Below are positions 12,974 to 16,456 of a stretch of 64,000 bases of DNA, in pieces; positions within the stretch are counted from its first letter, which is position 1; each line of letters starts with the position of its first letter. The notes under the pieces are model-generated. The model was not told the DNA's origin, ran no database searches, and saw nothing but the letters and a program-made list of their open reading frames with translations. Position numbers and translations under genes: made by a program. Source of the stretch: Paenibacillus sp. FSL R5-0345 (GTDB taxonomy: Bacteria; Bacillota; Bacilli; Paenibacillales; Paenibacillaceae); the NCBI RefSeq assembly GCF_000758585.1, contig NZ_CP009281.1, forward strand, positions 5,456,001-5,520,000, given 5' to 3'.

Positions 12974-15337
12974 TTATTGACCTATAATCTGATCGGTCTT
13001 TCCTTGCAGCTCCACCAGCTTCATAATCACCGTAGCCGCCAGCGCTTTCGATACCGTCTGTTGCGGATTAAACTTGCCGTTGTCATCCTTTAAGATTCCC
13101 AATTTCACAACAAGAGCCACTGCACCCTTTTTGTTAATAGATGAACTATCGCTAAATTGACTTACAGTCACATCTTTATCAAGATAGGTTGTGAGTTTGT
13201 TGTATTTCAAAAAATTAGCCAGCAGAACAGCAAGCTGTTCCCGGGTTAATTTACTATCAATTTGGAGGCTTTCATCCTTATTGATCCACTTACGATCTGC
13301 CGCATAAGTAACAGCATCATAATATGAATTTTCAGGCTTCACGCCAGCCACAGTTTTTCGTTCATTATTATTATAATAATTGCTGAAATTCGGATTAGAA
13401 GCCTTAACAAGATAGGTTATCCAATCGCCAACAGTTATTTCTTGATCCGGGTTCACTTTACCATCGGCATCCGGAGTAAGCACATGATACTTTACTAATT
13501 CTGACAATGGCTGTTCTGCTGCGTGGCCTTTGATATCCGTCGCAGATATTTGAGTATCTTGCTGACCGAGATAATCATAAACCGCAGTCCATTTTCCAGT
13601 GGCTGCATCTAAAACCTGATACAATCCGTTAGATTCATCAAAGGTTGTATCATATACCAGCTTCACCTTTGGCGCGACATAACTGCTATAAGTATTGTAT
13701 CCGCCAACCTGAGTGTATCTTAGCTTAGTCTGATATTTGGGTTTATAACTTTCGAGTGCTTCCTTCTTGGATATTTTAGCATCTGGCGATAATGTGATCT
13801 CATCGATACCGCTTATCCGATTCCCCATGTAAGAAATCAGTCTGCCGTAAAGATCCAAGCTTACCGTAATATTGCTGTCACTCACAGGAATCCCTTGATG
13901 ATATCTAATAAACTGGTATCTGAATGCAGATCCGTCTGAAGTCACGCTTGAATTAGCTCCATATTCAACAAGCTTTAGCTTCTCGCTCGCCTGAGGATAT
14001 AGGCTATTAATTATACTAAGCGCTTTAGACTTAGCTTCAGCCTCACTAAGCTTCTTCCCTCCAACAGGAGCCGGCTCTTCTTTTTTATCCTGAGTAACAC
14101 CATAGGTTTGAACTTGGTACTGCAATATTTCACCGGTCTTTGCATCTATTTCAGCAGAGGATTGTTCTGGAAAACCAGCACCAATGAAACGTTCATTTCC
14201 ATTACCACCCCAGTATAACTGCCAGATCTTCCGATTCGTATCCTGATAGTCGTTTCTCAAGCTTTGAGAAATCAATTTACGATCTGCTGGAATGTAAGCT
14301 ACCTTCTTTACAAGCTGTTCCGCTTCTTTTGCAGAAAGCTCTGTAGTAGAGCTTCTTGCTTGAAAGACATCCTTACTCTTGGCTATATCTGAATACACGA
14401 CTGGAGTGGATACGGATTCTTTTCCTTCATAATCTATTCTCTTGCCGGTCAATGCATCGATAGGATATAGAGATTGATCCACCGGACGCCAGCCTAGAAT
14501 CCAGTTGTTGGGTTTTCCGTTCTTATAAATAGGAATGTAAAAAAGACCTACATCAAGCTGATCCGCAAATTGCTTCTGTGCTTGCTCCAAGGTAATCTTA
14601 GGCTGTGCAGACGGATACTCAAGCCCTTGAGAAGACTTAGAGAATTGAATTACATCTCCGTTCCCATCCACAGCTATGTTAATGCTATCCGATCCAGAGG
14701 GAAGACCATTCTTCATGATATTGAAGAAATAGCCATATTGAACAGGACCGAATAAAGCGCTCGAAAAATAATTATAACCAACATTCTCATTTAATTGCAG
14801 ATCACTGCTCTTAACCGATGAAGCTGCCTTAGCCACAAAAGCCTTGGCGATCTCCAGTGCCTGCGCCTGCGATATTTTCGGTGGATAATAGGATTCGTTA
14901 TTCTCACGTGGATATGAAATATACGTACTGATAATATCTCCATTAATCGCATCTATCTCACTGCTAAAGCCATATCCCATATTCCCTTCTTGCATTTGCC
15001 ACTGAATATTCCAGATCATTTGATTTGCTGGAGCGGGGTAGCTTTGGTTAGATCCCAGTTGAACATTGTTTACCGTTGCATTTTTTAGGGATGGGAATAA
15101 TTCTCTTAGCTTTGCAATCGCTTGCTCCTGCGTGAATTTCACTTTTGTAATATCTGCCTCGGACGTCGTTGTAGTAGTCGGGGCTTGTGCGCTAACCTGG
15201 GTTACCACAGTGTTGCTGCTAACAGATGTAGAATCGGCAGCAGCCAAGCTTGGTGGTAACAATAATGCGATTGCCACTGAAGTAATCAATACCGTTTTAG
15301 CTGTCTGATGAACAAAGTGCGTGTTATTGCTTTTCAA
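12974..15337 (-). CDS. Secreted YcdB/YcdC-repeat protein with C-terminal SLH-like domains
   Basis: Exported protein of 787 residues. A signal peptide (hydrophobic TVLITSVAIALLLPPSLAAA) precedes several PepSY-like/YcdB-YcdC repeats. These are recognisable by recurring pairs such as AIAKLRELFPS...GFSSEIDAINGDIIS, AQALEIAKAFV and EAEAKSKALSIINSLYP...DLYGRLISYMG. About residues 600-780 form S-layer-homology-like units (YAADRKWINKDESLQIDSK, VKLGILKDDNGKFNPQQ) that should hold the protein to the wall polymer. It starts at TTG: GAGGAGG lies 10 bases before TTG, while an ATG directly abutting GAGGAGG opens only a seven-codon frame. Its role is unknown; YcdB-type repeats may inhibit or chaperone secreted enzymes. 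It is transcribed alone. Confidence 0.8.
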   Translation of the reverse strand: MKSNNTHFVHQTAKTVLITSVAIALLLPPSLAAADSTSVSSNTVVTQVSAQAPTTTTTSEADITKVKFTQEQAIAKLRELFPSLKNATVNNVQLGSNQSYPAPANQMIWNIQWQMQEGNMGYGFSSEIDAINGDIISTYISYPRENNESYYPPKISQAQALEIAKAFVAKAASSVKSSDLQLNENVGYNYFSSALFGPVQYGYFFNIMKNGLPSGSDSINIAVDGNGDVIQFSKSSQGLEYPSAQPKITLEQAQKQFADQLDVGLFYIPIYKNGKPNNWILGWRPVDQSLYPIDALTGKRIDYEGKESVSTPVVYSDIAKSKDVFQARSSTTELSAKEAEQLVKKVAYIPADRKLISQSLRNDYQDTNRKIWQLYWGGNGNERFIGAGFPEQSSAEIDAKTGEILQYQVQTYGVTQDKKEEPAPVGGKKLSEAEAKSKALSIINSLYPQASEKLKLVEYGANSSVTSDGSAFRYQFIRYHQGIPVSDSNITVSLDLYGRLISYMGNRISGIDEITLSPDAKISKKEALESYKPKYQTKLRYTQVGGYNTYSSYVAPKVKLVYDTTFDESNGLYQVLDAATGKWTAVYDYLGQQDTQISATDIKGHAAEQPLSELVKYHVLTPDADGKVNPDQEITVGDWITYLVKASNPNFSNYYNNNERKTVAGVKPENSYYDAVTYAADRKWINKDESLQIDSKLTREQLAVLLANFLKYNKLTTYLDKDVTVSQFSDSSSINKKGAVALVVKLGILKDDNGKFNPQQTVSKALAATVIMKLVELQGKTDQIIGQ

Positions 15338-15508
15338 AAGAATTCATCCTCCTCTAACACGTGATTCATAACATTATACAGATAATTTCTTATATTTTCC
15401 ATATTTAATTAACGACAGGAAATTACAACATTTATGTAATGTATGCTATATAAGCTATAATGGTAGGCAGCTACAGCTTCAACTCATCTATGAAAGGGGG
15501 CCACCCAC

Positions 15509-16456
15509 ATCACTGACTGGAACCTTCAGCCGCTTATAGACGGTATTACTGGCCTAGATATTCGCAGTTGTCTAATCGTTCAACATGGAAAACCCATACT
15601 GGAGCATTATCGCGAGCCTAAAATTGCAGTAGAGCTTGGCAAAATTAACTCATGCACCAAAAGTGTGCTCGCCGCTCTAGTCAGCATAGCCATAGATAAA
15701 CAAATCGTTCCACCACCGGATACCCCTATTTCACTCTTTTTCCCTTTATTAAAAGAGGATCAGGACCCACGAAAAAGAGAGATCACGATCGGTCACTTAT
15801 TAACAATGACAGCTGGCTTTAACTGGACGGAGTTTGGGGGGCAGAATTCTTTTCCGACCATGACCAAAACCGCAGACTGGATAAAGTTTGTGCTCGCGCA
15901 GCCGCTTGCGCATACGCCTGGAACCGTGATGACTTATAACTCCGGATGCTCTCAGCTCTTATCCTCGATTCTGCGGGATTGTTCTGGACAAGACGTGGCT
16001 GCCTTTGCCGAAGATCAGCTGTTTCAGCCGCTTGGCATCGAAAGCTATCGCTGGGATAGTGATCCGCAAGGCATACATACTGGTGGTTTTGGCCTTTATC
16101 TGAAGCCAGAGGATATGCAGAAATTCGGTCTCCTTTATTTGCAAGAGGGGCGCTGGAAGGCTCAGCAGCTTATTCTTTCAGACACGGTTCAGAAGTCCAC
16201 TCACCCATATGTTGAAGCCACACTTCCACAGAAGGGCTTCTACGGCTGGCACTGGTGGGTATCCTCATTCAATGCAGGCACAGAGCAGCAGCCGAATGAG
16301 ATCCCTTATTATTTTGCGCTTGGTTTCATGGGTCAGCACATTATTGTGGTTCCAGCCTACGAGCTGGTTGCAGTCATCACTGCGGATAAATATAAGAAAC
16401 GCTCACCTGCAAATGTCTTCGGCCGATTTATTGTACCTGCTCTTCTTGGGCGATAG
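15509..16456 (+). CDS. Serine hydrolase of the beta-lactamase/PBP4-like family, with no canonical start codon
   Basis: Class-C beta-lactamase-fold hydrolase (PF00144 type) of about 315 residues. The catalytic SxxK motif (SCTK, Ser48/Lys51), the YxN motif (YNS) and HTGG in place of KTG are all present, so the active site looks intact. The puzzle is the start. Between the in-frame stop at 15491 and the SxxK serine there is no ATG, GTG or TTG. AAAGGGGG at 15493-15500 sits eight bases before an ATC at 15509, followed directly by a normal N-terminus (TDWNLQPLIDG). Either ATC initiates or an ATG has mutated. The first GTG (15665) would drop the catalytic serine. The substrate is unknown; no signal peptide is seen, so it is cytosolic. 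Confidence 0.75.
   Translation: MTDWNLQPLIDGITGLDIRSCLIVQHGKPILEHYREPKIAVELGKINSCTKSVLAALVSIAIDKQIVPPPDTPISLFFPLLKEDQDPRKREITIGHLLTMTAGFNWTEFGGQNSFPTMTKTADWIKFVLAQPLAHTPGTVMTYNSGCSQLLSSILRDCSGQDVAAFAEDQLFQPLGIESYRWDSDPQGIHTGGFGLYLKPEDMQKFGLLYLQEGRWKAQQLILSDTVQKSTHPYVEATLPQKGFYGWHWWVSSFNAGTEQQPNEIPYYFALGFMGQHIIVVPAYELVAVITADKYKKRSPANVFGRFIVPALLGR

Follow-up and report, generated by a model that had tools for sequence, protein, structure and literature searches.

The window, the whole 64,000-nucleotide stretch of DNA analysed here, belongs to a genome assembled as a single contig of 6.79 Mb, and the named near relatives of this genome are Paenibacillus. A serine hydrolase gene of the PF00144 family lies on its plus strand (15509-16456, 315 codons and TAG). 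Read directly from the window, the open frame covers 15494-16453 (320 codons), with the stop TAG at 16454-16456, and its upstream limit is an in-frame TGA at 15491-15493 (plus). A Shine-Dalgarno site, GAAAGGGGG, is found at 15492-15500 (plus), and we take it to pair with the anti-Shine-Dalgarno sequence, one G-U pair included. The site is followed by an 8-nt spacer, CCACCCAC (15501-15508, plus), and then by ATC (15509-15511, plus), the proposed start codon. The preliminary description had put the ribosome site eight bases before ATC, and the 8-nt spacing holds; its position of 15491 is two bases early, as the core AAAGGGGG occupies 15493-15500 and GAAAGGGGG counts from 15492. A TATAAT sequence at 15456-15461 (plus) is a candidate -10 element by consensus match only, and it is unchanged in all seven aligned sequences (the window and six relatives).

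The near-start codons within codons 1-52 of the gene are ATC, ATA, ATT and CTG only. The first in-frame ATG, GTG or TTG is a GTG at codon 53 (15665-15667, plus), which is downstream of the SxxK active-site motif (Ser48-Cys-Thr-Lys51, 15650-15661, plus). A product starting there would be without the nucleophile, and a search for a Shine-Dalgarno match before this GTG returned none. The hydrolase has no canonical in-frame start able to give an active protein. These readings bear out the preliminary description, which had stated that no ATG, GTG or TTG start precedes the active site and that the in-frame alternatives before SxxK are only ATC, ATA, ATT or CTG.

Several other features are visible around the gene and elsewhere in the window. 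An out-of-frame ATG at 15490 opens an 8-codon frame that spans the ribosome site and ends at TGA 15514-15516, just past ATC. The divergent neighbour gene (12974-15337, minus strand) is listed with a TTG start; in its start region (15335-15352, minus), an in-frame ATT stands two codons ahead of the listed TTG, and an out-of-frame ATG immediately follows its ribosome site. A SAM-dependent methyltransferase-like gene, named by eye (1822-2555, minus), has its frame broken near 2325 and is uninterrupted in the sister genome G039, which may reflect a real defect or an assembly error.

The hydrolase matches Pfam PF00144 with 98.4 bits against a cut-off of 27, and all matching NCBIfam models score below their cut-offs. 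In the SxxK motif, Ser48 (codon 15650-15652) and Lys51 (codon 15659-15661) do not vary among the 33 aligned proteins, and neither does Tyr143 of the second motif, Tyr143-Asn144-Ser145, in which Ser145 is also invariant. We take the SxxK nucleophile and the tyrosine of the second motif to be hallmarks of PF00144. The second motif of class C beta-lactamases is YxN; since Tyr-Asn-Ser does not fit Tyr-x-Asn, a class C beta-lactamase proper was rejected and we do not call the protein a beta-lactamase. The AlphaFold2 model has a mean pLDDT of 87.7 overall and of 80 for residues 1-10, and its first 52 residues contain helices, two strands and the nucleophile. The nearest solved structure in both sequence and fold is Lsa45 (PDB 8dc1; phmmer E 1.7e-30, Foldseek E 3e-22), likewise a PF00144-type hydrolase, although the two share just 27% identity.

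To read the start codon in relatives, we used a near set of eight sequences: the window, its six nearest relatives (87-93% identity) and L053, a locus from a metagenome-assembled genome. The protein has a match at E 0.001 or better in 100 of the 100 genus genomes searched, and 194 genomes matched at E 1e-80 or better; start codons come from fetched loci only, for which the 30 best loci, own locus among them, were taken. The aligned codon is ATC or ATT in the window and the six nearest relatives, and ATC in L053, whose locus has an N-run further downstream. In all eight sequences, GAAAGGGGG is identical and is followed by exactly 8 nt, differing in letters, and then by ATC (five sequences) or ATT (three); ATG occurs at this codon in none. 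No ATG, GTG or TTG in any frame was found at offsets 1-16 past the ribosome site in any of the eight, and two of them (L004 and L006) have an out-of-frame TTG at offset 17. The upstream in-frame TGA is kept in seven of the eight, window included, and is absent in L009. A strong ribosome site, normally spaced from the AUH codon that follows it, is a conserved feature of these relatives and more than a chance occurrence.

Further away, the picture is more mixed. In orthologs at about 60-68% identity the aligned codon is ATG, TTG or ATA; a ribosome site, judged by eye, precedes it in the sister clades too. In a tree of 37 proteins, the ATC/ATT group (seven rows) forms one clade with support of 100/100, ATA at the start position appears in two separate pairs, and TTG and ATG are scattered among the other rows. 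In L014 and L016 an in-frame ATG adjoins the ribosome site, so the ATA start of these two is uncertain; in L013 and L015 a TTG lies three codons downstream of ATA. ATA also occurs in L022, an outgroup protein in which ATG follows three codons later. Among five further distant loci, three have the aligned ATG and two have ATG three codons later. Left out of the counts were L001, which is the same place as L003, L033-L038, which are the same contigs as loci already included, and L040-L052, which are also absent from the tree.

The gene appears to be maintained as coding sequence over its whole length. The whole gene has a dN/dS of 0.10 over seven sequences (the window with six relatives), and codons 2-52 alone have 0.15; third positions account for 24 of the 36 variable sites in codons 2-52, and no internal stops were found in the seven frames. 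The low dN/dS together with the intact frames excludes a silenced gene and supports translation ahead of GTG 15665. Coding conservation is apparent from the proposed start codon onward, and by these comparisons the hydrolase is a functional chromosomal gene of the penicillin-recognising-fold PF00144 family.

We then compared 1.2 Mb of the source genome (18%) with the matching stretches of G039, after a first pass of 400 kb, and looked for ATH codons that follow a ribosome site in both genomes and are not preceded by a canonical codon. The 1.2 Mb pass (643 gene pairs) gave nine rows in eight ORFs. The site score is imperfect, as 53 of the 643 genes had no canonical start scoring 5 or more. When all codon classes were put through a stricter filter (628 gene pairs), four genes passed for ATH: the hydrolase, infC, a calcineurin-like phosphoesterase and a YoaA-like helicase. 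Other codon classes gave matches only inside these four, with a single AGG exception (ORF 1434621) that we took as noise. The candidates set aside were ORF 258560 (minus), whose start is ambiguous because the sister genome has TTG two codons earlier; ORF 1446589, with a strong site at the next GTG; ORF 350343, where the next TTG has a site; and ORF 288343, with a weak site in a compared stretch that is unchanged. A second, internal ATC row of the helicase was dropped. Scaled up in simple proportion and assuming an even spread, the four genes from about 18% of the chromosome would correspond to roughly twenty genome-wide.

Each of the three other genes was followed in further genomes. The start region of infC reads ATC AGT AAG GAA CAT ATG, its in-frame ATG being the fifth codon after ATC, and GTT directly precedes ATC; all 13 genomes searched, own included, have ATC at this start. 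The phosphoesterase (PF00149) has an ATC start outside the window at G000:C1:1751964 (L144:964, plus) and was matched in 59 of 100 genus genomes; of the 30 loci fetched, own included, 28 start with ATC and 2 with ATG. A search of 34 further family genomes matched 11 of them (14 loci). Ten orthologs of another genus, read at the same aligned start, have ATT (6), ATC (1) or ATG (3), and four more distant loci have ATG one codon earlier. Two phosphoesterase loci, L267 with ATG and L268 with ATT, differ little near the start codon, which indicates that ATT occupies the position of the start ATG. The YoaA/DinG-like helicase, whose NCBIfam models score below cut-off, has an ATT start outside the window at G000:C1:1633293 (minus, L138:2293) and was matched in 44 of 100 genomes; among the 20 loci fetched, own included, the start is ATT in 13 and ATC in 7. 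The preceding codon is GAT in one locus, L259, and GTC or GTT in the other 19. Since GTC/GTT in the helicase and GTT in infC precede the ATH codon, the start in these two genes was chosen by spacing, and the helicase start may be of the GTC type, the codon of the sigR start, instead of ATT/ATC. With these qualifications, the same kind of putative start signal is common to the hydrolase, infC and two further genes of the genome.

Taken together, these observations suggest that translation of a live hydrolase gene very probably begins at ATC 15509. The preliminary description had offered rare initiation at ATC as one of two possibilities, and it gains from the fixed-distance ribosome site and ATC/ATT codon in the window and all seven near relatives, from purifying selection starting at codon 2, and from the three further genes with conserved ATH starts.

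Among the alternatives, the one that survives best accepts ATC/ATT as the codon in use and holds that it is merely tolerated: the start would have drifted from TTG or ATG, expression would be of little importance, and no regulation would be involved. Sister clades with TTG and ATG at this codon fit such a drift, and third bases give weak evidence that ATG is avoided. Of the 107 four-fold third positions in the window and six relatives, 79 are variable, and G was never seen in 49 of the 79; because such G-free variable sites are common, the missing ATG could be due to chance and does not establish that a weak start is selected. This explanation has to account, however, for the persistence of ATC/ATT behind an invariant ribosome site in all eight sequences of the near set, and of ATH over greater distances in three other genes. 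We consider it a sizeable possibility, albeit one with the odds against it.

A second explanation, which we consider very unlikely, is that ribosomes start at the out-of-frame ATG 15490 and reach the hydrolase frame by a frameshift or by stopping and restarting at ATC. The ATG is present as ATGAAAGGGGG in six of the eight sequences, window included, and its short frame ends adjoining ATC. However, L005 has CTG in its place and L009 is without the codon, and both retain the gene, which disfavours this route; a ribosome site before this ATG is also not visible in the sequence.

Slightly less probable again is a recent point mutation or sequencing error that took away an ATG, leaving the gene silenced or mis-read. 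The missing canonical start before the active site and the ATG at the aligned codon in L010, a more distant relative, would agree with it, and the interrupted methyltransferase-like gene near 2325, intact in the sister genome, shows that defects or errors do occur in the source assembly. Nevertheless, the seven near relatives, which come from separate assemblies, all have ATC/ATT, and the frames are intact at a dN/dS of 0.10. Silencing by point mutation, the other possibility raised in the preliminary description, is therefore rejected by the comparison with close relatives; the result that the preliminary description had named as refuting, ATG at this codon in relatives, was seen in none of the seven near ones, and ATG or TTG occurs in more distant orthologs only. 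As the odd start is kept by related species, we see in it a weak start signal that was probably inherited, and not a broken gene. The least probable explanation, that the product starts at GTG 15665 behind 52 untranslated codons, is what a caller limited to ATG/GTG/TTG would choose, this being the first canonical codon in frame, but it would give a product without the SxxK nucleophile, the helices and the two strands, from a codon with no preceding ribosome site, and codons 2-52 evolve as coding sequence.

How initiation at ATC 15509 might work is suggested by published systems. IF3 is reported to repress non-canonical starts, and infC (ATT start in E. coli, ATC in Streptomyces) is autoregulated through its start codon (PMC5472188). 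In Staphylococcus aureus, infC (AUA), ccpN (AUA) and cvfC1 (AUU) have extended Shine-Dalgarno sites; in poor medium, reporters with non-canonical starts reached ~10% of the AUG level, and in rich medium ccpN reached up to 30% (PMC13009471). In a reconstituted system, AUU was read by the CAU anticodon, and more IF3 led to a smaller share of full-length peptide (PMC10158994). The hydrolase has the same anatomy as these published non-canonical starts, from which we infer weak, IF3-sensitive fMet initiation at AUC. In AUC/AUU, just the first two bases would pair with the initiator fMet-tRNA, and the extended Shine-Dalgarno pairing would make up for the weak codon. IF3 would then destabilise the AUC/AUU complexes, keeping output low, and output would rise as IF3 activity falls; for the IF3 step at the hydrolase start, we see the chances as roughly even. 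By the same analogy, it is plausible that the ATC start keeps hydrolase expression very low. Folding of the RNA in the start region is unremarkable (z 0.25), which leaves the codon as the likely limiting element.

Each of the known systems resembles the hydrolase in part. Like infC, it combines a near-cognate AUH start with a strong ribosome site, and infC of the same genome also has ATC at the corresponding position; unlike the infC product, which senses the codon, the hydrolase is an enzyme without a known IF3 link. With ccpN and cvfC1 it shares a conserved non-AUG start behind an extended Shine-Dalgarno site, although the genes differ and the S. aureus starts were established by ribosome profiling and reporters, whereas ours is read from sequence (PMC13009471). 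The start of Streptomyces sigR is likewise kept across species (GTC in 32 of 34, GTT in 2) behind an extensive ribosome site, and sigR is repressed through this GTC; sigR differs in its codon, GTC and not ATC, in encoding a sigma factor and not an enzyme, and in that repression by IF3 was demonstrated (PMC5472188). The pncA gene (BBE22) of Borrelia burgdorferi is, like the hydrolase, an enzyme gene, and its protein is truncated in database entries despite the AUU start; unlike the hydrolase, it is a plasmid gene, and its start and structure were demonstrated (PMC13398362).

The kind of signal is already known, and the hydrolase is a new predicted case of it. Non-canonical starts characterised by experiment are described as very few (PMC5472188). 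Across 36 groups of close genomes, AUG had changed to AUU in 1 of 61,358 reconstructed AUG starts, and GUG to AUU in 1 of 5,080 GUG starts (PMC5622118). Among the matches listed by our literature search, with most subscription journals outside its coverage, there were no Paenibacillus reports of non-canonical start codons. The hydrolase and two genes found alongside it hold such codons at the start position across species, which points to a class of genes that annotation restricted to ATG/GTG/TTG would truncate or miss. A truncated hydrolase, lacking the catalytic serine, would resemble a pseudogene.

From the long-kept AUC/AUU starts one can go further and read co-regulation by IF3 activity. 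We put forward tentatively, as something we hold possible yet doubtful, that the AUC/AUU genes (hydrolase, infC, phosphoesterase and helicase) form an IF3-responsive translational regulon dispersed in Paenibacillus. If true, this regulon would be invisible to start-codon rules restricted to ATG/GTG/TTG. Whether IF3 sets the output of several unrelated genes together is a question open to direct testing. We also note a second IF3-like gene outside the window, at G000:C1:408359-408559 (minus, L124). GTG stands at its start position in four of five near genomes, own included (the codon of the fifth was not read), and two IF3_N matches are present in 13 of the 13 genomes searched.
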